Positions 27,768 to 59,120 of a stretch of DNA of 64,000 bases are shown here, piece by piece (the first letter of the stretch is position 1; each line of letters starts with the position of its first letter). The translations under genes and the position numbers were made by a program. The stretch is from Acidobacteriaceae bacterium. GTDB lineage: Bacteria > Acidobacteriota > Terriglobia > Terriglobales > Acidobacteriaceae. The notes below the pieces were generated by a model. That model was given only the letters and a program-made list of their open reading frames with translations, did no database searches and was not told the origin of the DNA. The DNA is taken from positions 1 to 64,000 of the forward strand of contig JARLFY010000062.1 of the NCBI GenBank assembly GCA_031296325.1, read 5' to 3'.

Positions 27768-27965
27768 CTGTATCGACATATATCCGAACACTGCGTTTTG
27801 ATCCGCAGCAGAGCTATAGGTCGGGCCTTCGGTCCTTGCCAGACAACGGCCGGGGGCCCCGTCCATCGCGGTTTCATCAGCGATGGGTGGGGGGAATACA
27901 GTTCGCACCATAAGTCGCTGCTTTTGCCGTTGTCGTTGCCTATCTTTTGTTGAACACGCCCTAGC
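27768..27965. repeat. Interspersed repeat R2, copy 1
   Basis: The part around 27863-27951 is nearly identical (about 4 mismatches in ~90 nt by eye) to the reverse complement of 31037-31127; 27770-27835 nearly identical to the reverse complement of 54057-54128. Confidence 0.85.
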
Positions 27966-30979: not shown

Positions 30980-31044
30980 TATTTGTCATTCCTCCGCTGC
31001 GCTGCGGAATGACAAACAAAAGGCTACGGAATGACAAACAAACG
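30980..31044. repeat. R1-type palindrome plus extra half-copy
   Basis: atttgtcattcctccgctgcgctgcggaatgacaaacaaaaggctacggaatgacaaacaaacg. Confidence 0.8.
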
Positions 31045-31208
31045 ATAGGCAACGACAACGGCAAAAGCAGCGACTTATGGCGCGAACTGTATTCCTCCCA
31101 CCCATCGTTGATGAAACCGCGATGGATGGGGCACCCAGCTATATACTCCTACTTCACACTTAAAAACCGCGTCGCAAAGCAACGTGTATATGTCGATACG
31201 GCCTAGAG
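31040..31208. repeat. Interspersed repeat R2, copy 2 (inverted relative to copy 1)
   Basis: ataggcaacgacaacggcaaaagcagcgacttatggcgcgaactgtattcctcccacccatcg...tgtatatgtcgatacggcctagagca; inverted match to 27863-27951 and end match to 54105-54130. Confidence 0.85.
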
Positions 31209-33297: not shown

Positions 33298-33416
33298 CCC
33301 CTAGAGCAGTTCGCGTAATTGTGTATGCCGACGAGCAACGAGCAAAAACAGATTCCTCCGCCCGCGCTGCGGAATGACAAATAAATGGGTCTACAGAAAT
33401 TCAACAAATGCTATAG
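33298..33416. repeat. R1 repeat copy
   Basis: agagcagttcgcgtaattgtgtatgcc...agattcctccgcccgcgctgcggaatgacaaataaatgggtctacagaaattcaac. Confidence 0.75.
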
Positions 33417-40595: not shown

Positions 40596-42866
40596 ATGCA
40601 GAGCAGTGACGGGACGGCGGTGAGTGTGGCGCAGGCAAAGAGTTCGAGGGAGCGGCGGTGCAATACGCTGGCGGGTGCGGCTTCGGCCTATCTGCGCTCG
40701 GCGATGCGGCAGCCGGTGGAGTGGATGGAGTGGGGCGAATTGGCCTTCGAGCGCGCTGCGACGGAGGATAAGCCGATCCTGCTGGACATTGGCGCGGTGT
40801 GGTGCCACTGGTGTCATGTGATGGATCGCGAGTCGTACGAAGATGCAGCGACGGCGCAGATTATCAACCAACACTTCGTCGCAGTGAAGGTGGATCGCGA
40901 CGAGAGGCCGGATGTGGATGCGCGTTACCAGTCTGCGGTGGCGGCGATCAGCGGGCAGGGTGGCTGGCCGTTGACTGTGTTTCTGACTCCCGAGGGCAAG
41001 CCGTACTTTGGCGGAACGTACTTTCCTCCGCAGGATGGGTACGGTCGGCCCAGCTTTCAGCGCGTGTTGCTGACGATGGCGGAGGTCTTCGCTAGTCGCC
41101 GCGCTGAGGTGGACGAGTCCGCAGCGAGCGTGATGAGGGCGATCGAACACAACGAGTCCTTCTCGGGACGGGCGAGCAATCCGGGACAAGAGTTGGTGGA
41201 GAAGATGGCCGTGGCGGCACTGAAGAGCGCGGATCTGCGCTACGGCGGCTTCGGATCGCAGCCGAAGTTTCCCCATTCGAGTGCGCTGGATTTGCTGTTG
41301 GATCTGGCCTCGCGAGCGACGAGCGTTCCGGTAAAACTGGCTGGCGTGGGGGAGGGAACTGCGACGTTGGATGAGGCGGCAAAGCTCGTCGTGCAGCTTA
41401 CGCTGGAGAAGATGGCGCAGGGAGGAATCTGCGACCAGCTTGCGGGAGGTTTTCATCGCTACTCGGTGGACGAGCACTGGGGAGTGCCGCACTTCGAGAA
41501 GATGGCATACGACAACAGCGAGTTGCTGAAGAATTATGTTCATGCCTGCCAGACGTTTGGCAATGCGGAGTCTGCGCGAGTGGCGCGAGAGATTCTGCGC
41601 TGGATGGAGGAGTGGTTGAGCGACCGCGAACGGGGCGGCTTCTACGCCTCGCAGGACGCGGACATCTCGCTGGACGACGATGGCGACTACTTTACCTGGA
41701 CGCTGGAGGAAGCGTCCGAGGTATTGACGGCGGAGGAGTTGGCGGTTGCGGCTGCGTACTATGGCATCGGCGTGATCGGCGAGATGCAGCACAACACGGC
41801 GAAGAACGTACTCCATGTGAAGAGCGGGATCGATGCGGTGGCGCGCAGTGCAGGGGCAAGCGTCGATGAGACGCGGCGGCGTCTGGATGCGGCGAAGCAA
41901 AAGCTGTACGCGGCACGGCTGAAGCGACCGACTCCGTATATCGACAGGACGATTTATGTCGCGTGGAATGCAATGTGCATCTCGGCTTACATCCTCGCCG
42001 GACGTGTGCTGGACGAGCCTGAGGCGCGGGCCTTTGCGCTGAAGTCGCTGGATCGCGTACTGGCTGCGGCGTGGAGCAAGCAGAACGGGCTGGCGCATGT
42101 TGTTGCCTATGGCGAGAGTACGGATGAAGAAGCGGATTCCTCCGCTACGCTGCGGAAGGACAAGCAAACTGCGCTGCGGAACGATAAACAGAGGAGCGTG
42201 GCAGGGGTGTTGGACGACTACATCTTCCTCGGACACGCGGCGCTGGATGCGTGGGAGGCCTCTGGCGAGATGCGCTACTACGAGGCCGCAACGGAGCTGA
42301 TGGAGTGCGCTCTGGAGCGTTTCTATGATGCGACCGGCGGCGGTTTCTTCGACACCGAAAGACCTGCAGAGGGCGAGCGCAGGTTGGGCGCGCTGGGGAC
42401 GCGGCGCAAGCCTTTGCAGGATGCACCGACCCCGGCGGGAAATCCCATGGCGGCAGCTCTGTTGTTGCGCTTGCATGCGCTGAGCGGGCGCGAGGAGTTC
42501 GCTACGAGGGCGCAGGAGACGCTGGAGTCCTTTGCCGGAGTCGCCGAACAGTTTGGCTTGTATGCCGCGACCTATGCGCTGGCCTTGCAGCGGAGCGTGT
42601 TGCCTCCGGTGCAGGTCTGCGTGGTTGGCGACGACGCGACGGCGCGCGTTCTGGAGTCGGCTGCTCTGCGGCGCTATGCGGTCAACAAGTGCGTAGTGCG
42701 ACTGGGGCGCGCACAGCTTGCCGCGTTGCCGCCGGAGTTGGCTGCAACGCTGCCGCATCTGGCGCGGATCGAGGGAAGTTTTGCGGTGGTCTGTAGCGGC
42801 CAGTCCTGCCAGCCTCCAGTGCGAACGGTGGAGGAGATGCTGGCTGCACTGCGGCGGAGTTCGTAG
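40596..42866 (+). CDS. Thioredoxin-domain protein, YyaL/DUF255 (SPATA20) family
   Basis: CNTLAGAASAYLRSAMRQPVEWMEWGELAFERAATEDKPILLDIGAVWCHWCHVMDRESYED; GQGGWPLTVFLTPEGKPYFGGTYFPP. Confidence 0.92.
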   Translation: MQSSDGTAVSVAQAKSSRERRCNTLAGAASAYLRSAMRQPVEWMEWGELAFERAATEDKPILLDIGAVWCHWCHVMDRESYEDAATAQIINQHFVAVKVDRDERPDVDARYQSAVAAISGQGGWPLTVFLTPEGKPYFGGTYFPPQDGYGRPSFQRVLLTMAEVFASRRAEVDESAASVMRAIEHNESFSGRASNPGQELVEKMAVAALKSADLRYGGFGSQPKFPHSSALDLLLDLASRATSVPVKLAGVGEGTATLDEAAKLVVQLTLEKMAQGGICDQLAGGFHRYSVDEHWGVPHFEKMAYDNSELLKNYVHACQTFGNAESARVAREILRWMEEWLSDRERGGFYASQDADISLDDDGDYFTWTLEEASEVLTAEELAVAAAYYGIGVIGEMQHNTAKNVLHVKSGIDAVARSAGASVDETRRRLDAAKQKLYAARLKRPTPYIDRTIYVAWNAMCISAYILAGRVLDEPEARAFALKSLDRVLAAAWSKQNGLAHVVAYGESTDEEADSSATLRKDKQTALRNDKQRSVAGVLDDYIFLGHAALDAWEASGEMRYYEAATELMECALERFYDATGGGFFDTERPAEGERRLGALGTRRKPLQDAPTPAGNPMAAALLLRLHALSGREEFATRAQETLESFAGVAEQFGLYAATYALALQRSVLPPVQVCVVGDDATARVLESAALRRYAVNKCVVRLGRAQLAALPPELAATLPHLARIEGSFAVVCSGQSCQPPVRTVEEMLAALRRSS

Positions 42867-46275: not shown

Positions 46276-46384
46276 ACAATTCTGATTGTACCGTTGAGCA
46301 TCGTCTTCGCGTAGCGAGACTCTGCAAAGGGATAAAGAAAATATTGATGCGGATGACGCGGATAGAAGCATCTTCTGAATGGGT

Positions 46385-46545
46385 ATAGCCCCATTTGGTT
46401 GTCATTCCGTAGCGAAGCGGAGGAATCTGCTTTTGCTCGCTGCGCGATGGTCTGTACCATTGGAGGATTTTCTCCAATGGTATAGACCGTGACATCGCGA
46501 GAAAAATGAGGGGATTCTTTGCTGCGCTCAAAATGACAATTCATT
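46385..46545. repeat. Head-to-head pair of R1-type repeats (BIME-like)
   Basis: tgtcattccgtagcgaagcggaggaatctgcttttgctcg... central ggtctgtaccattggag-gatttt-ctccaatggtatagacc ...aggggattctttgctgcgctcaaaatgaca. Confidence 0.8.
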
Positions 46546-46578
46546 CTTGATTTATGGCACATAAAGAATGTTCTGGAG

Positions 46579-48492
46579 TTACTGGTTCAGGGCGATTCCT
46601 TCTCCTGCTGGAAGCGTTGTTGTTGCGGGTTCGTGGAGCAGGTCGATGACGCGCTGGTAGAGGCGATTGCGCATCTCAAAGCGCTGCGCCGCTCGCGTTA
46701 CATAGCGCACCAGAATGTCGATTCCGGCTCCCGACGGGCGCAGATTCACAGTAGGATCTGCGCTGAAGTTGCTCAGCCCATTCTGTCGCGTACCGCGCTT
46801 CCACTCCGTCTCCGCTGTTCGTGCAGACTTTTCGGTCTCCTCCAGCATCGCCTTGTGAATACGCTCCACCATCGCGGAGGTGTTGGCCGAGGCGGGAAGG
46901 TTGACCGAGATCTCGTCCCACATCCACTGCCCGGTCGTGGAGAAGTTGAAGTATTGTCCACGGATGGCAAAGCTGTTGATGAACGAGACGCGGCGCCCGG
47001 TCTGATGGCCCAGATCGGTCCAGTCGCCCATCTCCAGCAGGGTGGTGCGGATGATGCCGATCTCGGTGACCTCTCCTCCGACGCTGTTGATCTCGACCCA
47101 GTCGCCGACGCGAATGCCGTTCTTGCCCATCAGGACGAACCAGCCGAAGAAGGCCAAAATGAAGTCCTGCATGACGATGGTGATGCCTGCGGTGGCCAGA
47201 CCCAGAATCGTCGGCATCTGGTTCGGCGTGCCGAAGACGATCAGAAGGATCACGAGTCCGCCGGTCAGTTGAACCCCCAGTTTGAAGACCGTGCGCAGGG
47301 TCTGCATCTGGCGGCGGTCGAGCGAGGGATGCCGCAGCAATTTTTCCACCAGCGCATCGCAGAGAAGGATGCAGAGAAGGATGAAGGCGATCCAGGCCAG
47401 CGATTGCAGGGTCAGGTGAACCAGAATGCGGTGCTGCAACTGAACCTGTGTGCCCCACGCACTATAGACCTTGGCCAACTGCTGCTCAGTCTGGATGCGG
47501 TCGGCGTAGATGCTGAGCAACTGGCGCTCGGCGCTCTTCTCCTTCAGACTGGCGAGTTGGATGGAGTGGTCTGTAGCGGCGTCCGCCGTTGGCTGATCGG
47601 CGTTGACTCCCCCGTTGGTCTCCGCCGCCAGAGCTTTGCGCTCGCCGGTCAGAGTGTTCCCGTCGCTCTGCGCCTGCACCAGAGCCTGCTGGATCAACTG
47701 CTGCCGCTCGCGCTGGTTCTTCCATGCCTGAATGCGTGCGGCTAGGGTTCCGTGGTGCGAGACTGAGACGACGGCGACCTCGCCCCCGCCGTGCGAGGAC
47801 TTGTCGAACTCGCGCATCGCCGATTCATGTTCGGTGAGTTCGGCCTGAATCTGGGTGCGATTATCACCCACGGCGTGAGCCAGATTCTCCTGCGCATCGT
47901 CCAGAACGTCGGAGTCCAGCGAGAGCTGCGCCTGCGCAATATCCAGATCGTCGTTGCCGGTCGAAGAGGATGCGTCCTTATCTGCCTCGTTAGACTTTGA
48001 GGTTGCCGCCTTGTCGTCGCTGGTTGAGCCACCCAGACTGTGTACCAACGCCTGATCCTGCTGTACCACCAGCTTCATCTGCGCGACCTTCTGCGAGAGC
48101 GCAAGAGCATCTCCGGTCAGCACACGCCGCTGCACCTGCGCGCTGGCCTTGCGCAATGCCGTTGCAAAGGCCTGATCCACCTCGTGATCGGCAAGCTGTT
48201 CCGCCTGCAATGCGTAAGCGTTCTCCTCCGCCGTGACGGCCAGCGGAGCCAAGGCCTGCGCCGTCTGCCACGGTCCCAGATCCACCAGCGACTTCTGGCC
48301 CGCAGCGTTGCCCGCAGCCCCTTTTCCCTTCAGAAAGGGAAGATGGGCCATCGAGTCGCGCGTGGTCCAGGAAAACGCCAGACACAAGCAAAGCAGAGCC
48401 AGAGAGACGAGCAGGCAGGTCATTCTTCTCCGTCCGAAGATAATAGAAGTAGCGCCTTCGGCGGAGTGCGGAGAGAGGTGCATATTGGCCAT
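46579..48492 (-). CDS. Mechanosensitive ion channel, MscS family, with long coiled-coil N-terminus
   Basis: GLATAGITIVMQDFILAFFGWFVLMGKNGIRVGDWVEINSVGGEVTEIGIIRTTLLE; start chosen at MANMHLS. Confidence 0.88.
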   Translation of the reverse strand: MANMHLSPHSAEGATSIIFGRRRMTCLLVSLALLCLCLAFSWTTRDSMAHLPFLKGKGAAGNAAGQKSLVDLGPWQTAQALAPLAVTAEENAYALQAEQLADHEVDQAFATALRKASAQVQRRVLTGDALALSQKVAQMKLVVQQDQALVHSLGGSTSDDKAATSKSNEADKDASSSTGNDDLDIAQAQLSLDSDVLDDAQENLAHAVGDNRTQIQAELTEHESAMREFDKSSHGGGEVAVVSVSHHGTLAARIQAWKNQRERQQLIQQALVQAQSDGNTLTGERKALAAETNGGVNADQPTADAATDHSIQLASLKEKSAERQLLSIYADRIQTEQQLAKVYSAWGTQVQLQHRILVHLTLQSLAWIAFILLCILLCDALVEKLLRHPSLDRRQMQTLRTVFKLGVQLTGGLVILLIVFGTPNQMPTILGLATAGITIVMQDFILAFFGWFVLMGKNGIRVGDWVEINSVGGEVTEIGIIRTTLLEMGDWTDLGHQTGRRVSFINSFAIRGQYFNFSTTGQWMWDEISVNLPASANTSAMVERIHKAMLEETEKSARTAETEWKRGTRQNGLSNFSADPTVNLRPSGAGIDILVRYVTRAAQRFEMRNRLYQRVIDLLHEPATTTLPAGEGIALNQ

Positions 48493-48659
48493 ACTGTGAT
48501 TCTCACAGGGATTGCAAAATTCTGCATCCCCTCGTGCCACAGGAGATAAAGATCGGGGGCTGTTTGCGACAGAAACGCCTCCTGCGCCTGAAAGAATTTA
48601 GGATTGAGAAGAAGACGCAACGGCGCAGTCGAATCGGCCCTGCGATGGAGCGGTGAGCG

Positions 48660-50561
48660 TTGGGGAGATTGGCCGTAGAGGATGAATTGCAGCTCGCGAC
48701 GGAGCGATACCAGCCGATCGTGCAGCCGCAGCGGATCGATCGGCCTGAGCCGTCAGCCCGCAGCCAGCGACCCTGCGAACGCGTCTTTGCCGCAGCGTTG
48801 GTCAGCGCGCTGACCCTCTTCTCCGTCATCATCAACGGCTACCACCCCTACGCGGAGGACGGAGGGCTGTATCTTGCCGGAGTCAAGCGGCTGCTCGATC
48901 CTGCGCTCTATCCTCACGGCACGGCCTTCGTTCTGGAGCCGATGCGGCTCTCCTTCTTTGCGCCCACTCTTGCGGCTCTGGTGCGGTTGCTGCCCATGAC
49001 GCCCGATGCGGCGCTACATCGAGGTCTTCCGGTCGTGCTTCTGGCGTTGCATCTGGCCAGCATCTGGGCAACTCTGTTTGCCGCATGGCTGCTTGCCACG
49101 CGCTGCTGGACGACGCGTGCTGCGCGCGCAGGAGCGGTAACCCTGCTGGCCTGCTGGCTGTCGTTGCCGGTCGCCGGAACTGCGTTGCTCATTATGGATG
49201 CGTACGTCACGGCGCGCAGCCTCTCAACACCTGCGCTGTTGCTGGCGCTGATCGGCGTACTGGACTGGACCGAGCCGGATCGGACAGAGCGCAGCGCGGC
49301 GATGACGCGGCGACGACGCGGCTTCTACCTCTGCGCCGGAAGCCTTACTCTGGCTACAGTCATGCATCCTCTGATGGCCGCCTACGCTCTGGCTGCGACG
49401 CTGATGCTGCTCGCCACGCGAGCGCCCCGGCGCTCCAGCAGAGTTGGCTGGACACTGACGCTGGCAGTTACCGCGCTGGTTTTGGCTGCACTGCTGCAAG
49501 CTGTGGCGAGGCCGGAGAGCGCAGAGTACCTCCGCGTAGCCCTGACCCGCACCTACTGGTTCATCGCGCAGTGGCGCTGGTTTGAGTGGGCAGGTCTGGC
49601 CGCGCCGTTGGCAATCCTGTCTGCGATGGCGTACTCCGCCGCGCCCCGGATCTACGTCTCCAACTCGCTAGAGCATCTCTCGAATTACTGTAGACCCATT
49701 TGCTTGTCATTCCGCAGCGAAGCGAAGGAATCTGCTTTTGCTCACTCCACGACGGTCTACCCCATTACCGAAGACGCTCTGTGGCCTCCGCTGACGTATG
49801 ATCCGATCCTGCATCGCAAGGTGGAACTGGCAGACGGCCAGTCCGTGCAGGCCGAGGACGCAAGACGCGCTCTGTTGCGGATGGCCGTTGCCGTGGGTGT
49901 AATCGCCTGCCTGATTGCCGCACTCTTCGCCCGCGCTGCGGCGGCGACGCATCTGGTCGCACGTTTACAGCCTCTGCGCGCCTTTCAATGCGTCTATCTG
50001 GTGCTTGTGCTGATCCTCGGCGCGCATTTGGGGGAACGCATACTGCGACGAAGCGCATGGCGCTGGGTGGCGACGTTGCTTCTGCTTGGCGGTGTCATGC
50101 TGGGCGCGGAACGAGCGGCCTTCCCCCACTCAAACCACTTGGAACTGCCAGCCTTTGCCTCGTCCGGCAGCCAACAGTCCGAAGTGCGCAATCAGTGGGT
50201 ACAGGCCTTTCTCTGGATTCGCGAGCACACGCCAAAGGACGCTCTCTTTGCTCTCGACGCGGACTACATCAACGCTCCGGGAGAAGACGCGCAGTGCTTC
50301 CGCGCTATCGCCGAACGCAGTTCTCTGGCCGACTACTCCAAGGACGGAGGCGAGGCATCGATCGCGCCCGATCTAACCGCAGCGTGGGCCGAGGGGCAGG
50401 CGGCACAGCAGAGATTGAGTTCGCCCGCTACCACCGACGCCGAGCGACTGGCTACGTTACGCCCTCTGGGAGTCTCCTGGCTGGTGCTGCAAGCGTCCGC
50501 GACGACTAGCCTCAACTGTCCCTTCAGCAACGCCGCAGTAAAGGTTTGCCAGCTCCCGTGA
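48660..50561 (+). CDS. Hypothetical multi-TM membrane protein; carries an internal R1 repeat
   Basis: Multiple hydrophobic segments; residues ...LEHLSNYCRPICLSFRSEAKESAFAHSTTVYPITEDALW derive from repeat sequence. Confidence 0.7.
   Translation: MGRLAVEDELQLATERYQPIVQPQRIDRPEPSARSQRPCERVFAAALVSALTLFSVIINGYHPYAEDGGLYLAGVKRLLDPALYPHGTAFVLEPMRLSFFAPTLAALVRLLPMTPDAALHRGLPVVLLALHLASIWATLFAAWLLATRCWTTRAARAGAVTLLACWLSLPVAGTALLIMDAYVTARSLSTPALLLALIGVLDWTEPDRTERSAAMTRRRRGFYLCAGSLTLATVMHPLMAAYALAATLMLLATRAPRRSSRVGWTLTLAVTALVLAALLQAVARPESAEYLRVALTRTYWFIAQWRWFEWAGLAAPLAILSAMAYSAAPRIYVSNSLEHLSNYCRPICLSFRSEAKESAFAHSTTVYPITEDALWPPLTYDPILHRKVELADGQSVQAEDARRALLRMAVAVGVIACLIAALFARAAAATHLVARLQPLRAFQCVYLVLVLILGAHLGERILRRSAWRWVATLLLLGGVMLGAERAAFPHSNHLELPAFASSGSQQSEVRNQWVQAFLWIREHTPKDALFALDADYINAPGEDAQCFRAIAERSSLADYSKDGGEASIAPDLTAAWAEGQAAQQRLSSPATTDAERLATLRPLGVSWLVLQASATTSLNCPFSNAAVKVCQLP
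49669..49781. repeat. Full-length R1 repeat inside a CDS
   Basis: gagcatctctcgaattactgtagacccatttgcttgtcattccgcagcgaagcgaaggaatctgcttttgctcactccacgacggtctaccccattaccgaagacgctct. Confidence 0.8.
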
Positions 50562-50632
50562 ATACACAATAGCCTGCACGCTCGTATGATAGAACGTAGC
50601 AGACGGGGTACTAACCGTCTTGAAGGAGCAGT

Positions 50633-51424
50633 ATGAGCAGCACTCCAGCATCGATCTCCCCGAGCCTCAAGATCGTCGAACCCACGCCTTTTGACGCCGC
50701 CGCCTTTGCCGCACATGCGTTCTCGTCTCCCGCCACGCTGGCCGCTCTCTTCGACCACACGTTGCTGAAGCCCGATGCCACGCGCGCTCAGGTCATTCGC
50801 CTCTGTCACGAGGCGGCCGAGCATCGCTTTGCCTGTGCCATGGTCAATCCCACATGGCTCGCCTGCGCGGTCGAGGCACTGGCCGGAACCGGCATTCCGG
50901 CGGGAGTCGTCATCGGCTTTCCGCTGGGCGCGTCACTTGCCGCCTCCAAGCGCGACGAGGCCGCTCGCGTCCTCAAACTCGGCGCGCACGATGTGGACAT
51001 GGTTCTCAACATCGGCCTGCTCAAATCCGGCACTAAAGAGGATTACGAGGCGATCAAGCAGGAGATTCGCGCGGTGGTCGAGTTGGCACACGGCGCGGGA
51101 GCCATCGTCAAAGTCATTCTGGAGACCTGTCTGCTTACCTTTGAAGAGAAGTTGCGCGCCTCCGAACTGGCTCTGGCCGCCGGGGCCGACTTCCTCAAGA
51201 CCTCCACCGGCTTCTCTTCGGGCGGAGCCACAGCCGACGACATCGCGCTTCTGCGCGGCGTGGCCGGACGACGCGCCGGAGTCAAAGCCTCGGGAGGAAT
51301 CCGCTCGCTGGCCGACGTTCGCGCCATGCTGGAAGCCGGAGCCACGCGCATTGGAGCCAGCGCCAGCCTGAAGATCCTCGCCGAATTCTCCAACCAATCC
51401 ACGACTTCTGCCAGCGAGGCCTGA
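50633..51424 (+). CDS. deoC: Deoxyribose-phosphate aldolase
   Basis: LFDHTLLKPDATRAQV; VVIGFPLGASLAASK; FLKTSTGFSSGGATADDIALLRGVAG...VKASGGIRS. Confidence 0.97.
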   Translation: MSSTPASISPSLKIVEPTPFDAAAFAAHAFSSPATLAALFDHTLLKPDATRAQVIRLCHEAAEHRFACAMVNPTWLACAVEALAGTGIPAGVVIGFPLGASLAASKRDEAARVLKLGAHDVDMVLNIGLLKSGTKEDYEAIKQEIRAVVELAHGAGAIVKVILETCLLTFEEKLRASELALAAGADFLKTSTGFSSGGATADDIALLRGVAGRRAGVKASGGIRSLADVRAMLEAGATRIGASASLKILAEFSNQSTTSASEA

Positions 51425-51556
51425 ACCTTGATCCAGTATTCGTTTGTCATTCTGAGCGAAGCGAAGAATCCCCGCATTTCGTTCGCGGTGGCAATGGAGT
51501 GCAGCAACAGGGGAACCGCTCTAGCCCTCTGCCGCAGACTGGCGCGTAAGTCACTG

Positions 51557-52432
51557 ATGCAAAAGAAAAATGCAGAGAAGGATAGAATGAGGACGATGCT
51601 GCGGACTCTGCGTTGCTGGATGATCGTCGTGCTGCTGGGGTTCTTGGGCCAAGTGGCGCTTGGGGAGTCGGTGGCGACGATGCCTGCGCCGACCGGCTAT
51701 GTGAGCGATCTGGCCGGGCTGTTGACGCCGGAGACGAAGGCCAGTCTGGAAGAGCTTTGCACCGAGGTCGATCATCAGGCCCACGCGCAGATCGCCGTCG
51801 TAACGGTGAAGAGTCTCGAAGCTGATCCGGTAAAGAATCAGAAGGCGAGCGACGCTCTGCCTGCGCCCTCAATCGAGGAGTTCACTACTGCCCTGGAAGA
51901 CAAGTGGAAGGTCGGAGCCAAGGGAACCGATCGCGGAATTCTGCTGATCGTATCGCTGAATCCCAGAAAGTATCGGATCGAGGTTGGATACGGACTCGAA
52001 GGAATTCTGAACGACGCCAAGGTGGGCGACATCGGGCGCGAGATGGCTCCGCTGCTGCACTCCGGCGACTATAATCAGGCGATTCCGCTGGGCACTCGCG
52101 AGATCGCGCAGGACATTGCCGCCGATGCAGGAGTGGCGCTGTCTGGGGCGGATGCACCGGTTCAGCGTATCTACCGCGAGCAGCCGGCACAGCCGCAGGT
52201 CAGTCCGATTGGCGCGCTGATTGTGGGTGTGATTCTGATGGTGGTGATCGGGGTGCTGATCCGCACCGGACACATCGGGCTGCTCTTCTTTCTGCTCTTC
52301 AACCTGCTGGGCGGCGGAGGAGGAGGACGCGATGACGATGATCGCGGCGGCGGCTTTGGCGGAGGCGGAGGTGGTTTTGGAGGTTTCGGCGGCGGAAGCT
52401 CGGGCGGTGGCGGGGCAAGCGGAGATTTTTAG
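51557..52432 (+). CDS. TPM-domain (YgcG-like) protein with Gly-rich C-terminus
   Basis: GYVSDLAGLLTPETKASLEELCTEVDHQAHAQIAVVTVKSLE...GILLIVSLNPRKYRIEVGYGLEGILNDAKVG; ORF-track start at 51428 lies in R1-like repeat. Confidence 0.9.
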   Translation: MQKKNAEKDRMRTMLRTLRCWMIVVLLGFLGQVALGESVATMPAPTGYVSDLAGLLTPETKASLEELCTEVDHQAHAQIAVVTVKSLEADPVKNQKASDALPAPSIEEFTTALEDKWKVGAKGTDRGILLIVSLNPRKYRIEVGYGLEGILNDAKVGDIGREMAPLLHSGDYNQAIPLGTREIAQDIAADAGVALSGADAPVQRIYREQPAQPQVSPIGALIVGVILMVVIGVLIRTGHIGLLFFLLFNLLGGGGGGRDDDDRGGGFGGGGGGFGGFGGGSSGGGGASGDF

Positions 52433-52485
52433 GCAGTAGAAAAATTCGCAGCGACGTATCTATCGAAACGGAGAATTGAGAGACG

Positions 52486-53070
52486 ATGAATAAGACTTTG
52501 TGGATTGTGCTGGGCGTGGTTGGGCTGATGTTTCTGGGGCTGCTGGCGGTTGGCGGCAGCTATGTAAGCTCGAAGAACCAGATGGTCGCGATGAACGCGG
52601 AGGTGGACTCCTCCTTCTCGTCGATCGACGTGGATCTACAGCGGCGGGCCGACCTGATCCCGAATCTTGTGCAGACGGTCAAGGGCTATGCCAAGGTCGA
52701 GGAGACCGTTCTCACCGCTATCGCCAACGCGCGCGCCGGTTTGATGACGGCCAGAACTCCAGATGAGAAGCTGGCTGCGAACGACCGGCTGAACGTGGCG
52801 ATCCTGCCGCTGATGCGGATGCAGGAGAACTATCCGCAGTTGAAGAGCAACGAGCAGTTCATGCGCCTACAAGACGAGTTGGCCGGAACAGAGAATCGGA
52901 TTGCCGTAGCGCGGCTGCGCTATAACGCGTCGATCAAGGACTACAACGTCTTCATTCAGCAGTTCCCCAACAGCATCTGGGCGAGCTTTGCTGGCTTCCA
53001 GCCGAAGACGGGATACTACAAGGCGGATGACTCCTCGAAGACGGCCCCGAAGGTGGACTTCTCAAACTAG
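52486..53070 (+). CDS. lemA: LemA family protein
   Basis: VDSSFSSIDVDLQRRADLIPNLVQTVKGYAKVEETVLTAIANARAG...RIAVARLRYNASIKDYNVFIQQFPNSIWA. Confidence 0.95.
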   Translation: MNKTLWIVLGVVGLMFLGLLAVGGSYVSSKNQMVAMNAEVDSSFSSIDVDLQRRADLIPNLVQTVKGYAKVEETVLTAIANARAGLMTARTPDEKLAANDRLNVAILPLMRMQENYPQLKSNEQFMRLQDELAGTENRIAVARLRYNASIKDYNVFIQQFPNSIWASFAGFQPKTGYYKADDSSKTAPKVDFSN

Positions 53071-53275
53071 AAATTTTTACTGACGGACGCGCCGAGAATC
53101 GCCGAAGGCAGCCTGACGCACTGCAAGCCTCTCTGCGCATTTTGCGCGGAGACGATGGGGTGCTATCGTTGGAATCGCTTGTTCTTCGGCTTGCGAGCAA
53201 GGTTGCAGAGATTTGCTTGACGGGGACGAACACTTCGAGCCGGCAGAGGCACAGGAAAATGAGACGGTGGTAAAG

Positions 53276-53923
53276 ATGACAAAGCAGAAGAAGGCATTGA
53301 GTCAGGCGATTCGGGAGCGGAGGGCTACGCCCAGCTTCGACGGAGCGCCGATCCCTGCCGAGGATTTGCACGAGATTATTCATGCCGGCTTGTGCGCGCC
53401 CAGCGGATTTAACATGCAACCATGGCGCTTCATCGTGGTGCAGAGCGAGGAGCAGAAAAAACGTCTGCGTGCGGCTTCCTACAACCAAGGCAAGGTGGAG
53501 GAGGCCTCGGCTGTGATTGTGGCCTGCGGAGACGCCGATGGCTGGCGCAAGGATCTGGAGCCAATGCTGTATCGGGGGATCGAGGGAGGAATGCCGGAGG
53601 GATATGCGGCGCAGGCACGCAATATCGTTCCAAAGTACCTGTCGAACTTCTCCAGAGACGAGATGCATGGATGGCTCAACAAGAATGTGATGATCGCAAC
53701 CACCCAGATGATGTTGACCGCCGAGGTGATGGGCTACGATACCGCGATGATGGAGGGCTTCGAGCAGGAAAAAGTGCGCGAGGTGCTGCGTCTGCCGCTG
53801 AGCTATTGGACCGTGGCTCTGCTGGCCGTGGGACACTTGAAAGGTCCCGACAAGTTCGACGGAGGCCGATTCGAGATGGGGCATACCGTCTTCGGCGAAG
53901 AGTTCGGCAAGCCGCTGAAGTAG
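53276..53923 (+). CDS. Nitroreductase family protein
   Basis: MTKQKKALSQAIRERRATPSFDGAPIPAEDLHEIIHAGLCAPSGFNMQPWRFIVVQ. Confidence 0.9.
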   Translation: MTKQKKALSQAIRERRATPSFDGAPIPAEDLHEIIHAGLCAPSGFNMQPWRFIVVQSEEQKKRLRAASYNQGKVEEASAVIVACGDADGWRKDLEPMLYRGIEGGMPEGYAAQARNIVPKYLSNFSRDEMHGWLNKNVMIATTQMMLTAEVMGYDTAMMEGFEQEKVREVLRLPLSYWTVALLAVGHLKGPDKFDGGRFEMGHTVFGEEFGKPLK

Positions 53924-53957
53924 GCGGGGGCTTACCGGCTGCGGCAAAATTCCTGTT

Positions 53958-54040
53958 TTTCCGGTAATGGTGTAGACCGCCGTGGAGAGAGTCAAAGCGG
54001 ATTCCTTCGTTTCGCTACGGAATGACAAACAAATGATGCT
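53958..54040. repeat. R1 repeat copy
   Basis: ttccggtaatggtgtagaccgccgtggagagagtcaaagcggattccttcgtttcgctacggaatgacaaacaaatg. Confidence 0.75.
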
Positions 54041-54056
54041 ATGGAATGCCAACAAG

Positions 54057-54130
54057 GGCTGAAGGCCCGCCCTATAGCTCTGCTGCGGATCAAAACGCAG
54101 TGTTCGGATATATGTCGATACGGTCTAGAG
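54057..54130. repeat. Interspersed repeat R2, copy 3 (partial, inverted relative to copy 1)
   Basis: cctatagctctgctgcggatcaaaacgcagtgttcggatatatgtcgatacggtctagagc is the near-perfect reverse complement of ~27770-27825. Confidence 0.85.
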
Positions 54131-54214
54131 CAAAAGTGAAAAGGTTCAGAGATAAACAATCCTCTACAATGAACAGCGAACGGTAGATGTGTGTGAGTAC
54201 GGTTTAAAGGAGCG

Positions 54215-56401
54215 ATGAGCATGGGGAGAGTTTTGCGGATGGCGACGATCACGGTGGCAGGTGCGGTGTTGATGGGGGCTGGAGGAATGGGCGCGGCGGG
54301 TCAGGCTGCGGCGGGAAAGCCTGCGGCTGATGCTGCGGCGGCGTTTGGGCCAAAGAATCCTTTTTATACCGAGAGTTCGTTGCCGTATCATGCGCCGCCG
54401 TTCGACAAGATCAAGGACTCGGACTATCAGCCCGCGATCGAGGCCGGAATGGCTGAGCAGATCAAGGAGGTTGAGGCGATTGCCAATAATCCAGCCGCTC
54501 CGACCTTTGAAAATACGTTGGTGGCGTTGGAGAAGACGGGGCGGCTCTACAACCGTGCGGCGGAGACCTTCGACGGCGTGAGTCAGGCCAACACCAATCC
54601 CGTGCTGGAGAAGGTGGACGAGATCGAATCGCCCAAGCGGGCTGCGCACGACGACGCGATCTATCTGAATGCGAAGCTGTTTCAGCGCGTTGCTAAGATC
54701 TATGCGCAGATGGATTCGCTAGGGCTGGATGCAGAGTCGCGGCGGCTGGTGGATGTGTACTACAAGCATTTTGTGCATCAGGGCGCGAAGCTCTCGGTGG
54801 AGGATCAGAACAAGCTGCGCAAGCTGAATGAGGAGGAATCGACGCTACAGAACAGCTTTCGGACGAAGCTGTTGGCGGCGACCAAAGAGGCTGCGTTTAC
54901 CGCTAAGGATAAGGCAGCGTTGAAGGGGTTGACGGCGGCGCAGGTGGAGGCGGCGGTCGAGGCGGCCAAGGGACGCAAGGTGGAGGGCTACGTTTTGCCG
55001 TTGCAGAATACGACGCAGCAGCCGTTGCTGGCGTCGCTGGAGGATCGCGCGACGCGGCAGGCGCTCTTTGAGGACTCGTGGAATCGCGCAGAACGAGGCG
55101 GGGCGAACGACACGCGGGAGACGGTTCTGCGTCTGGCCAAGGTGAGAGCGGAGAAGGCGAAGCTGTTGGGCTTTGACAACTACGCGGCGTGGAATCTGGA
55201 AGACCAGATGGCCAAGACTCCTGAGGCCGCGATCAAGTTTATGGACGCGCTGGTTCCGGCGACGACGGCCAAGGCTGTGGTCGAGGGCAAAGAGATTCAA
55301 ACGGTGATTGATGCTCAAAAGGGCGGGTTCCAGTTGCAGCCGTGGGACTGGGAGTTCTACTCCGAGCAGGTGCGCAAGGCAAAGTACGACATAGACGAGG
55401 CGCAGGTGCGGCCTTACTTCGAACTCAATAATGTTCTGGAAAATGGCGTGTTTTATGCGGCAAGCCAGCTCTATGGGCTGAGCTTCAAGGAGCGTAAGGA
55501 CATTCCGGTATACAACCCCGACGTGCGCGTCTTCGAGGTCTTCGAGGCGAACGGCAAGCCGCTGGCGCTGGTCTACTTCGACTACTTCAAGCGCGATAAC
55601 AAGAGCGGCGGGGCGTGGATGAGCAACTTTGTCGATCAGTCGAAGCTGTTGGGAACGCTTCCGGTGATCTATAACGTGGCGAACTTCAGCAAGCCAGTCG
55701 CAGGGGAGCCGGCGCTGATCAGCTTCGACGACGTGACGACGATGTTCCACGAGTTTGGCCACGGGCTGCATGGAATGTTCTCCAGCGTGGAGTATCCGCG
55801 GCTGTCTGGGACCGACGTGCCGCGCGACTTTGTGGAGTTTCCCTCGCAGTTCAATGAACACTGGGCCAGCAATCCGGCGGTCTTCGACCACTTTGCCAAG
55901 CACTACAAGACGGGGACGGCGATGCCTCCAGAGCTGGCCGCAAAGCTGCGCAAGGCTGCAAAGTTCAATCAGGGATACATGCTGACCGAACTGCTGGCGG
56001 CGGCGGAGTTGGACATGCAGTGGCATACGATCTCCGCGACGAGTACGGTGGAGTCGCCCGACGCCTTCGAGAAGGCCGCGCTGGAGCGCAAGAAGCTGGC
56101 TCTGGCGACGGTTCCGCCGCGCTACCGTACGAGCTACTTTCAACACATCTGGGGAGGCGGATATGCGGCGGGATACTACGCGTATCTGTGGAGCGAGATG
56201 CTGGACGACGACGCCTACCAGTGGTTTGAGAATCACGGCGGGCTGACGCGCGCCAATGGCGAACGATTCCGCTCGATGGTGCTGTCGAAGGGCAATACCG
56301 AGGAGCTGGGAAAGATGTACGCGGCGTGGCTGGGAGCCGAACCAAGCGCCGAGCCGATGTTGAAGCAGCGCGGTCTGGTAGAGGATGGAGCAAAGAAGTA
56401 G
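54215..56401 (+). CDS. M3 family metallopeptidase (peptidyl-dipeptidase Dcp-like)
   Basis: DVTTMFHEFGHGLHGMFS (HExxH); SGTDVPRDFVEFPSQFNEHWA. Confidence 0.95.
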   Translation: MSMGRVLRMATITVAGAVLMGAGGMGAAGQAAAGKPAADAAAAFGPKNPFYTESSLPYHAPPFDKIKDSDYQPAIEAGMAEQIKEVEAIANNPAAPTFENTLVALEKTGRLYNRAAETFDGVSQANTNPVLEKVDEIESPKRAAHDDAIYLNAKLFQRVAKIYAQMDSLGLDAESRRLVDVYYKHFVHQGAKLSVEDQNKLRKLNEEESTLQNSFRTKLLAATKEAAFTAKDKAALKGLTAAQVEAAVEAAKGRKVEGYVLPLQNTTQQPLLASLEDRATRQALFEDSWNRAERGGANDTRETVLRLAKVRAEKAKLLGFDNYAAWNLEDQMAKTPEAAIKFMDALVPATTAKAVVEGKEIQTVIDAQKGGFQLQPWDWEFYSEQVRKAKYDIDEAQVRPYFELNNVLENGVFYAASQLYGLSFKERKDIPVYNPDVRVFEVFEANGKPLALVYFDYFKRDNKSGGAWMSNFVDQSKLLGTLPVIYNVANFSKPVAGEPALISFDDVTTMFHEFGHGLHGMFSSVEYPRLSGTDVPRDFVEFPSQFNEHWASNPAVFDHFAKHYKTGTAMPPELAAKLRKAAKFNQGYMLTELLAAAELDMQWHTISATSTVESPDAFEKAALERKKLALATVPPRYRTSYFQHIWGGGYAAGYYAYLWSEMLDDDAYQWFENHGGLTRANGERFRSMVLSKGNTEELGKMYAAWLGAEPSAEPMLKQRGLVEDGAKK

Positions 56402-56420
56402 GCCGCAACAAAGCCAGCAG

Positions 56421-56460
56421 AGGCCCAACTCCCGATTACGGGAGTTGGGCCTTTGCTTTG
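56421..56460 (+). terminator. Rho-independent terminator-like hairpin
   Basis: aggcccaactccc-gattac-gggagttgggcct followed by ttgcttt. Confidence 0.75.
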
Positions 56461-56507
56461 GCGGACTATATGAAGCTCGATACATACCGGCTTATCTAAC
56501 TAAATTT

Positions 56508-56622
56508 GAGTGTTTTCGGCATTGGTGTAGGCCATTGTGTCGCGAGCAACAGCAGATTCCTTCGCTTCGCTACGGAATGACAAACAAAGCGGTCTACAGT
56601 AATTCAGGAACTGCTCTGAAAT
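56508..56622. repeat. R1 repeat copy
   Basis: gtgttttcggcattggtgtaggcc...cagattccttcgcttcgctacggaatgacaaacaaagcggtctacagtaattcaggaactgctct. Confidence 0.8.
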
Positions 56623-56687
56623 GCTCTAACTCGTCTGATTTGAAATATTTGTTGTGAGACAGGTCTGGATCGTGTAGTCTGGCTGCC

Positions 56688-59120
56688 ATGAAATCCAGCC
56701 ATGTTTTTCTCCCCGTGTTGTTGATGACGGTCTGCGCGTTTGCGCAGAGTTCGGCTAAGCCCATTGATCCAACTGGGCCAGCGGAGGCTCCCAACTCGCA
56801 GAAGACTTACGCTGCGTTGCGCGCGGACCTTCCGGGAACCGACGGCGTGGCGGTGAAGGAGTTCACGCTGGAGCGCGAGGGAGGAAGGTTCTACTTCGAC
56901 CAAGGCAGCTTCTACTTCTACGCTCCGGTGGAAGGCCATGTGACCGGCGCGGTCTTCATCGGCAAGGGGCGCTTTGAACTGAAACCGAAGGGGGCGGGCG
57001 AGCAGCGTTCGCTGGCATTGCTGACCAAGAGTGACGCGCTCTCGCAGGAGTTCTCCACCCTGGTGCTGCGCTTCAGCGATAACACAGCGGAGGAGATTCG
57101 CAAGGCTTCGGCTGGAACCGCTCCCGCGACGGATCGACGTGTGCGAGCGGCAGCCGAAGATTTGGCCAGAAACTATCGCAAAAATATGAGCGACAACGTT
57201 GAATTGCGGATTCTGGCCGACCTGCTGGGCGGCAGCGGTCTGGGACACTATTTTCTGGCCTCGCTGCGCATGGGGAATATGCTGACGGGGAAGAATCTGC
57301 TCTTCCTGATTGATCCCGAAGGAACCGCGCACTCCTCACCCGACGAGGTGGAGTTGACGACCTGGAGCGATGTTGACTTGCAGCCGTGGGTGGCTTACCA
57401 GATGCAAGCTGCTGATGAGAAGGAGCGCGGCAAACGCATTCAGGTGAGCGACGAGAAGCTCGACGTGACCTTCGACAAGGGCGGCATGATGAAGGCTTCG
57501 GCTGAGACGAGGTTTACGATGAAGCGCGATGGAGTGCGCGTGGTGCGGCTTAATCTTTATCCCACGCTGCGCGTCTCGGGAGTCTACAGCGAGAGCGGCG
57601 TTCCGCTGGACTTTGTGCAGGAGGATAAGGCGCTCGATCCAGAGTTTGCCGTAATTCTGCCCGAGCCGGCGAAGAAGGGCGACACGGTACGCTTGTTGAC
57701 GGTCTACAGCGGCAAGGACGCACTGCGCGCCGACGGGAATGAGACCTACTACCTGATGAGTGGCGCGCGTGAGAGCTGGTATCCATCGGGCGCGGGCGAG
57801 ATGGGCGACTTCGCCAACTTCCACATGACCTTCCACCTTCCCAAGAACCTGCAGATCGTAGCCACTGGCAAGCAGGTGAGCGTGGTCCCGGAGAGTGGAG
57901 GGATGATAAAGGCAGTGTGGGAGACCGATGCGCCGATCCCGGTAGCTGGCTTCAACTTGGGAAACTTCAAGTCGAATGCCACGAAGACGCCGCAGGGATT
58001 TGGGGTGAGCGCTTATGCCGACATCGGCCTGCCGGATAAATTTGCCCATCTGTCGGAGGCTGCGGAGGACGAAGGCGTTGCCGCACTGGGAAATCTGTCG
58101 TCCGTTCCGGCGCTGGCAAACGAGGTCTCGCAGGGAGTTGCTGCGATTCAGATCTACTCGGACTTCTACGGCAAGCTGCCCTACGACCACGTCGCGCTGA
58201 CCGAGCAGACCGCATGCAACTACGGCCAGAGCTGGCCCATGCTGGTCTATCTGCCGCTGTGCGGATTCTGGGACAAGACGGTGCAGCATCAGTTGGGACT
58301 GCTCGACGGCGACGCCAGCTACTGGCGCGAGGTGACGCCGCATGAGGTCTCGCATCAGTGGTGGGGAAATCTGGTTGGTTTCAACAGCTATCGCGATCAG
58401 TGGATGAGTGAGGGATTCGCCAACTTCTCGGTGGGAATCTTTCTGCTGAATACATCGCCGAATATGGACTTGTACCGCGCCTTCTGGAAGGAGCAGCAGA
58501 AGAACCTGCTACAGAAGAATGCGCAGGGCGTGCGCGCGATCGATGCCGGTGCGCTGACCATGGGAGGACGCGTTTCCAATTCGAAGAACGGCGATGTCTA
58601 CCAGTTGCTGATCTACAGCAAGGGCGCATACGTCCTGCACATGCTGGAGATGGCCTACTGGACGCCGCAGGGACAGGAAGCCGCGTTCAAGCGGTCGATG
58701 CAGCAGTTCGTCAAAGACTACGCGGGCAAGGCCGCGACGACCGAGGACTGGAAGGCGTCGATGGAGAAGACCATGCCTAAATCGCTCGACCTGCGCGGCG
58801 ATGGCAAGCTGGATTGGTTCTTCGACGAGTACGTCAATGGCACTGAGCTACCGCACTATGCGATTGCCTCGGACTTTACCGTCGACGCGGATGGTGTCAC
58901 CAGCGCGCATATCAAGCTGACCCAGAGCAATGTCTCGAAGAGCTTTGTAATGGTCATTCCAATCTATCTGCAAATGCAGAACGGCAATACCGTTCGTATG
59001 GCGAATATGGTGGTTCACGGCAGCGATTCGGTCGAACACACGTTTACGCTGGGCAAGCTGCCCTCACCCGCAAAGACCGCGTTGGTCAACTACAACGCGG
59101 ATGTGCTGAGCGACAACTAA
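56688..59120 (+). CDS. M1 family aminopeptidase-like protein, secreted
   Basis: Signal peptide; VTPHEVSHQWWGNLVGFNSYRDQWMSEGFANFSVGIFL (HExxHxW...E). Confidence 0.9.
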   Translation: MKSSHVFLPVLLMTVCAFAQSSAKPIDPTGPAEAPNSQKTYAALRADLPGTDGVAVKEFTLEREGGRFYFDQGSFYFYAPVEGHVTGAVFIGKGRFELKPKGAGEQRSLALLTKSDALSQEFSTLVLRFSDNTAEEIRKASAGTAPATDRRVRAAAEDLARNYRKNMSDNVELRILADLLGGSGLGHYFLASLRMGNMLTGKNLLFLIDPEGTAHSSPDEVELTTWSDVDLQPWVAYQMQAADEKERGKRIQVSDEKLDVTFDKGGMMKASAETRFTMKRDGVRVVRLNLYPTLRVSGVYSESGVPLDFVQEDKALDPEFAVILPEPAKKGDTVRLLTVYSGKDALRADGNETYYLMSGARESWYPSGAGEMGDFANFHMTFHLPKNLQIVATGKQVSVVPESGGMIKAVWETDAPIPVAGFNLGNFKSNATKTPQGFGVSAYADIGLPDKFAHLSEAAEDEGVAALGNLSSVPALANEVSQGVAAIQIYSDFYGKLPYDHVALTEQTACNYGQSWPMLVYLPLCGFWDKTVQHQLGLLDGDASYWREVTPHEVSHQWWGNLVGFNSYRDQWMSEGFANFSVGIFLLNTSPNMDLYRAFWKEQQKNLLQKNAQGVRAIDAGALTMGGRVSNSKNGDVYQLLIYSKGAYVLHMLEMAYWTPQGQEAAFKRSMQQFVKDYAGKAATTEDWKASMEKTMPKSLDLRGDGKLDWFFDEYVNGTELPHYAIASDFTVDADGVTSAHIKLTQSNVSKSFVMVIPIYLQMQNGNTVRMANMVVHGSDSVEHTFTLGKLPSPAKTALVNYNADVLSDN

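Follow-up and report, generated by a model that had tools for sequence, protein, structure and literature searches.

A 109 bp repeat, R1, was found in frame within the gene of a multi-spanning membrane protein in the 64,000-nucleotide stretch of Acidobacteriaceae DNA that was analysed (the window). As a whole, the data are best explained (probability about 0.85) by R1 being a MITE moved by an IS630-family transposase, which entered the gene in frame at a TA dinucleotide in a tolerant loop and left the reading frame intact, selection having spared insertions of this kind.

The R1 element and its host gene

The features of the host gene and of the element are as follows.

48660–50561, + strand: host gene, multi-spanning membrane protein, 633 amino acids as listed
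49669–49670, no strand: TA, presumed target site, left copy (direct reading)
49671–49779, + strand: R1 element, 109 bp, MITE-like (nhmmer E 2.6e-34, direct reading); in-frame peptide EHLSNYCRPICLSFRSEAKESAFAHSTTVYPITEDA
49671–49696, + strand: left terminal inverted repeat GAGCATCTCTCGAATTACTGTAGACC (family consensus; matches the ends of IS630 elements in congeners)
49697–49753, + strand: core with TTGTCATTCCG(C/T)AGCGAAGCGAAGGAATC, also occurring alone as a short repeat
49754–49779, − strand: right terminal inverted repeat, reverse complement GAGCGTCTTCGGTAATGGGGTAGACC (family consensus; matches the ends of IS630 elements in congeners)
49780–49781, no strand: TG, presumed decayed right copy of TA (direct reading and inference; CTA to CTG, synonymous for Leu)

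The nhmmer match extended over 49670–49780, and the boundaries of the element proper were GAGC...GCTC. All 633 codons of the ORF were uninterrupted on direct reading, the repeat included, and the 109 bp of R1 together with one TA of the presumed duplication amount to 111 bp, or 37 codons gained by the host ORF. The original prediction, of a unit of about 111 bp, a multiple of three, lying inside an unbroken frame and adding about 37 residues, was borne out in each respect. Alignment of copies from the same genome gave the family consensus TTAGAGCATTTTC.GAATTGCTATAGACC.ATTTGTTTGTCATTCCGTAGCGAAGCGAAGGAATCTGCTTTTGCTCGCTCCACGACGGTCTACACCATTACCGAAAATGCTCTAA, with inverted ends of about 26–28 bp (TTAGAGCATTTTC...GAAAATGCTCTAA). 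When the consensus is translated in all six frames, just one is free of stops throughout, namely the sense frame beginning TTA GAG, and this is the frame read in the host gene; the window copy has about 12 differences from the consensus, yet contains no stop.

The window copy showed no sign of a long stable hairpin: as DNA, it folded no better than shuffled sequences (z 0.10), and hairpin folding was rejected as the explanation. Two other copies gave z values of 0.06 and 0.71, and only the copy at 46360 folded well (z −4.3). A search of Rfam over positions 46300–57000 returned nothing beyond one sub-threshold chance match. Codon positions were not used to argue that the insert itself is under selection, as the changes were too few and several were polymorphic in the family.

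The host gene was found in 59 of 62 congeneric genomes. Its product matched the Pfam family DUF6798 below the cut-off, and the structure model (mean pLDDT 75) gave AglB (E 7.9e-4) and ArnT (E 3.8e-3) as the best PDB matches, both with low TM-scores, so that the predicted fold weakly resembles the GT-C membrane glycosyltransferases. The true start is probably nearer residues 26–40, since the alignment with orthologues begins only there. Relative to the orthologue in genome G026, dN/dS was ~0.24 upstream of R1 (5′ half) and ~0.13 downstream of it (3′ half); with G043 or G045 as the outgroup, 14–17 unique replacements in the 3′ half fell on the window branch compared with 16–24 on the sister branch. 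Neither a stop nor a frameshift was present in the parts flanking R1. Judged from these comparisons, both halves are constrained by purifying selection and form a single conserved gene that shows no decay, rather than two ORFs split at the repeat. Given the purifying selection on both halves and the lack of any excess of replacements downstream of R1, the gene with its insert is very probably still made as one protein.

R1 lies within residues 304–351 of the model (48 residues), where pLDDT is below 50, between helices at 278–297 and 353–396; the R1 peptide is therefore predicted to occupy an unstructured loop between two transmembrane helices. The length of this loop differs among species. 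It comprises about 10 residues in distant congeners, than which the window protein is ~65 residues longer at this point, 37 of these being R1 and ~28 non-R1. None of the ~30 aligned congeneric orthologues had R1 at the site. In the three nearest MAGs (Granulicella sp. palsa_287, bog_404 and bog_405) the loop was lengthened by another dispersed palindrome, likewise in frame and with 40 or more matches in each of these genomes.

G028:C192:20441–20575 (L064; also L061, L062 and L063): GGTGCCCCATCCATTCCGC...GCGGAATGGGTGGGA palindrome in the loop of the sister proteins

In place of the expected clean gap of ~37 residues, the ~30 orthologues lack R1 but differ in the length of the loop, and the three sister MAGs carry a different repeat there. 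No allele of the same species without the insert was seen.

Copy number and probable mobility of R1

R1 was counted with nhmmer in 464 kb, comprising the window and twenty 20 kb stretches (L100–L119) taken from long contigs known to carry R1, a choice that introduces a mild bias. This yielded 107 matches to R1 or its core, short and dispersed and with no transposase gene inside, of which 98 lay between predicted genes, one overlapped a gene end and eight were within genes. Insertions within genes were strongly depleted relative to the 83 % of the sequence that is coding (P about 1e-65 for eight or fewer under random insertion). The eight fell in seven predicted genes and all were stop-free, a proportion (8/8) that is biased upward, partly by construction, as the crude gene caller used detects only uninterrupted frames and genes broken by R1 would have appeared intergenic and gone uncounted. 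Some of the core-only matches may belong to a short repeat family of their own. Apart from the copy in the membrane-protein gene, the following intergenic copies were located in the window by nhmmer.

33303–33413, − strand: intergenic R1 copy
46366–46473, + strand: intergenic R1 copy, absent from the original prediction
53957–54044, − strand: intergenic R1 copy, model positions 20–107
56508–56617, − strand: intergenic R1 copy

Those previously reported at 33298, 53958 and 56508 are thus real. Intergenic copies were over-represented between convergent genes (33/91, compared with 35/216 gaps of at least 100 bp; P 2.5e-4), as expected for elements at transcript ends. Longer repeat pairs in the window, 27849–27965 with 31023–31139 (89 %) and 27770–27838 with 54053–54121 (96 %), belong to other repeat families.

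Four IS630 elements (PF13358) with R1-like ends were identified in three congeners (G027:C156, G043:C149, G043:C28 and G031:C1), their inverted ends, of the type TAGAGCATTTCC..., flanking the transposase at a distance of 1027–1033 bp. These ends matched those of R1 at 19–23 of 28 positions, a score reached by shuffled ends in at most 1e-5 of cases, with the qualification that the first 11 positions had served in the pattern search and are not independent. The end pairs of G027:C156 and G043:C149 were also recovered by a blind inverted-repeat search. Among the 22 R1 copies that retained both inverted repeats, TA flanked the left end in 11, the right end in 13 and both ends in seven, the background being 3.9 % per site. 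Taken together, these features support the classification of R1 as a non-autonomous, TA-targeting MITE of the IS630 type. No IS630 or PF13358 transposase was detected in the window's own genome, an 88.8 % complete MAG, and the putative mobiliser is for this reason deduced from congeners; IS elements are often lost during MAG assembly.

In-frame repeats in other conserved proteins

The seven genes with R1 or its core inside were the window gene and those encoding GlmS (an enzyme of cell-wall precursor synthesis), PgeF/YfiH, an EamA transporter, a prolyl oligopeptidase, a DUF255 protein and a symporter/beta-lactamase/NamZ fusion, the last with two copies. The EamA transporter has gained 47 residues in a segment missing from four congeners, and PgeF/YfiH contains a 39-residue segment missing from seven. 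Three further cases are listed below.

L104:10875–12902, + strand: GlmS gene with the R1-core peptide LLSSRSEAEGS in a loop
42128–42175, − strand: R1 core, read in the antisense frame (EEADSSATLRKDKQTAL), in the DUF255/thioredoxin-like gene at 40704–42866 (+)
L118:15239–19663, + strand: fusion of a sodium:solute symporter, a beta-lactamase-like domain and NamZ, 1474 residues

The GlmS loop with the R1 core has 41 residues, compared with four in Escherichia coli GlmS; orthologues without the loop segment were found in part, and the loop was short in most of the family members examined. Elsewhere the same loop was occupied by RHSERSEEPPHFA in G006, by NNVVILSGARSAQSKGP in G027 and G028, and, in another genus (G092), by GAPHLASEMWDQ, which is encoded by a GGTGCCCCACATCTC...GAGATGTGGGAT palindrome. 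The DNA of the loop segments of G028, G006 and G045 matched repeats dispersed in their own genomes, whereas the repeat origin of the G092 loop rests on the palindrome itself. The insert in the DUF255 protein was common to three species, being present also in G043 and partly in G045 (LRNDKQ segments), which suggests that this insertion predates these species. The symporter/beta-lactamase/NamZ fusion was present across the genus, with an R1 copy at each domain joint. Since the GlmS loop and others hold different repeat-derived peptides in different species, the sequences compared indicate that separate repeats have entered the same tolerant loops. Whether this extends to a broader pattern, in which unrelated palindromic families (the IS630 MITE, a GGTGCCCCA...TGGG palindrome, a repeat encoding LSGARSAQSK, and others) keep supplying in-frame linker peptides to conserved proteins of the Acidobacteriaceae, is judged at about even odds. 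The loops of GlmS, prolyl oligopeptidase and the GT-C-like protein and the joints of the symporter/beta-lactamase/NamZ fusion, each filled differently according to species, would then reflect a genome-wide and ongoing remodelling of linkers in free-living bacteria.

The mobility of the repeat and its in-frame insertion, both anticipated in the original prediction, agree with the IS630-like inverted ends, the TA flanks, the absence of R1 from ~30 orthologues and the existence of orthologues of EamA, PgeF and, in part, the GlmS loop that lack the segment; the further proposal, that new peptide segments arise from the repeat, is upheld as far as the reading frame goes.

A recent insertion into a gene that is now a pseudogene, with the frame open by chance, has in its favour that a single fully open frame in the consensus makes the chance about one in six, that the length is divisible by three once the TA is duplicated, and that intergenic full R1 elements have on average 32 % of their frames open. 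The gene nevertheless lacks any stop or frameshift around the insert, shows normal constraint in its 3′ part and has no excess of replacements on the window branch; moreover, the window R1 has remained stop-free at ~12 sites from the consensus and the seven other in-gene repeats are likewise open, so that this explanation is very unlikely. It is also improbable that R1, instead of being a transposon MITE, belongs to the REP-like hairpins and owes its spread to gene conversion or to a RAYT (Y1) transposase. The core does occur alone as a short repeat, Y1 transposases are present in congeners, and the preference for convergent gene pairs is shared with REPs (PMC3733652), but full R1 is 109 bp rather than 20–40 bp long, has TA ends and long terminal inverted repeats in common with IS630, and in the window copy folds like shuffled sequence, while no Y1 transposase (PF01797) was found in the window's own MAG. 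These objections apply to the full copies; the core-only copies may be REP-like. The R1 peptide might, finally, have been kept for a useful property of the protein or mRNA, such as a longer linker, RNA structure or regulation, instead of being merely tolerated. Repeat-derived peptides in loops of several conserved proteins and several species, and the DUF255 insert common to three species, point in that direction, yet the identity of the peptide in a given loop varies from species to species and most relatives have none, for which reason tolerance is the better fit and a useful role seems improbable.

Under insertion of an IS630-type MITE into a tolerant loop, the preferred reading, an IS630-family transposase would act in trans on the terminal inverted repeats of R1 and insert it at TA. 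A copy would have entered a TA at positions 2–3 of a loop codon (xTA), and the host gene would have stayed in frame, because R1 and one TA make 111 bp and R1 is stop-free in the frame used, gaining 37 residues in a loop that was already unstructured. Selection would have purged nearly all insertions within genes, the survivors being in frame, stop-free and situated in tolerant loops or domain linkers. The translation of the insert and the neutrality of the added peptide are inferred.

Comparison with known repeat elements

In the literature library searched there was no paper on the R1 repeat, its DNA or its peptides, and none joining MITEs, IS630 and Acidobacteria. Palindromes in coding sequence are best known from the intracellular Rickettsia; here the same outcome is encountered in free-living soil bacteria and in conserved enzymes such as GlmS. 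With a probable IS630 mobiliser and many related genomes at hand, the frequency at which repeats become protein, the sites that tolerate them and the rate of turnover can be tested. For annotators, differences in loops or linkers between orthologues of Acidobacteriaceae can be repeat insertions.

In anatomy, R1 corresponds to RUP of Streptococcus pneumoniae, a 107 bp element associated with IS630-Spn1 (PMC2229807). Both target TA, share their terminal inverted repeats with an IS630-family element and are proposed to be mobilised in trans, and RUP was, at the time of that paper, the sole element for which matching IS ends had been reported. RUP, however, has stops in all six frames, whereas the sense frame of R1 is fully open and is found in frame within genes. 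In behaviour, R1 resembles the RPEs (Ogata et al. 2000, 2002), described in the cited accounts as repeats of 105–146 bp in conserved genes of Rickettsia which encode peptides in frame (PMC10969869, PMC2229807). It differs from them in its soil Acidobacterium host, in the identification of a probable mobilising IS and in the lack of a strong hairpin in the window copy, and the likeness is not a claim of membership of the RPE family by sequence.

The enterobacterial units RU-1/ERIC, RU-2 and RU-3 are also MITE-like, with open frames fused to host genes and, in RU-1, TA ends (Delihas, PMC2759123), although their sequence and phylum are different. GTAG and CGTC REPs, by comparison, are hairpins of 20–40 bp, those with GTAG being tied to RAYT transposases (Di Nocera et al., PMC3733652). 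Different REPs occupy about the same site in recB of two Xanthomonas species (PMC3733652); such intragenic REPs resemble R1 in lying in frame inside conserved genes but differ from full R1, which has IS630-type ends. In-frame mobile repeats as such are therefore already known from RPEs, RU elements and intragenic REPs, and what stands out here is that an IS630-type MITE has an open frame and, in combination with this, that several repeat families have used the same loops.
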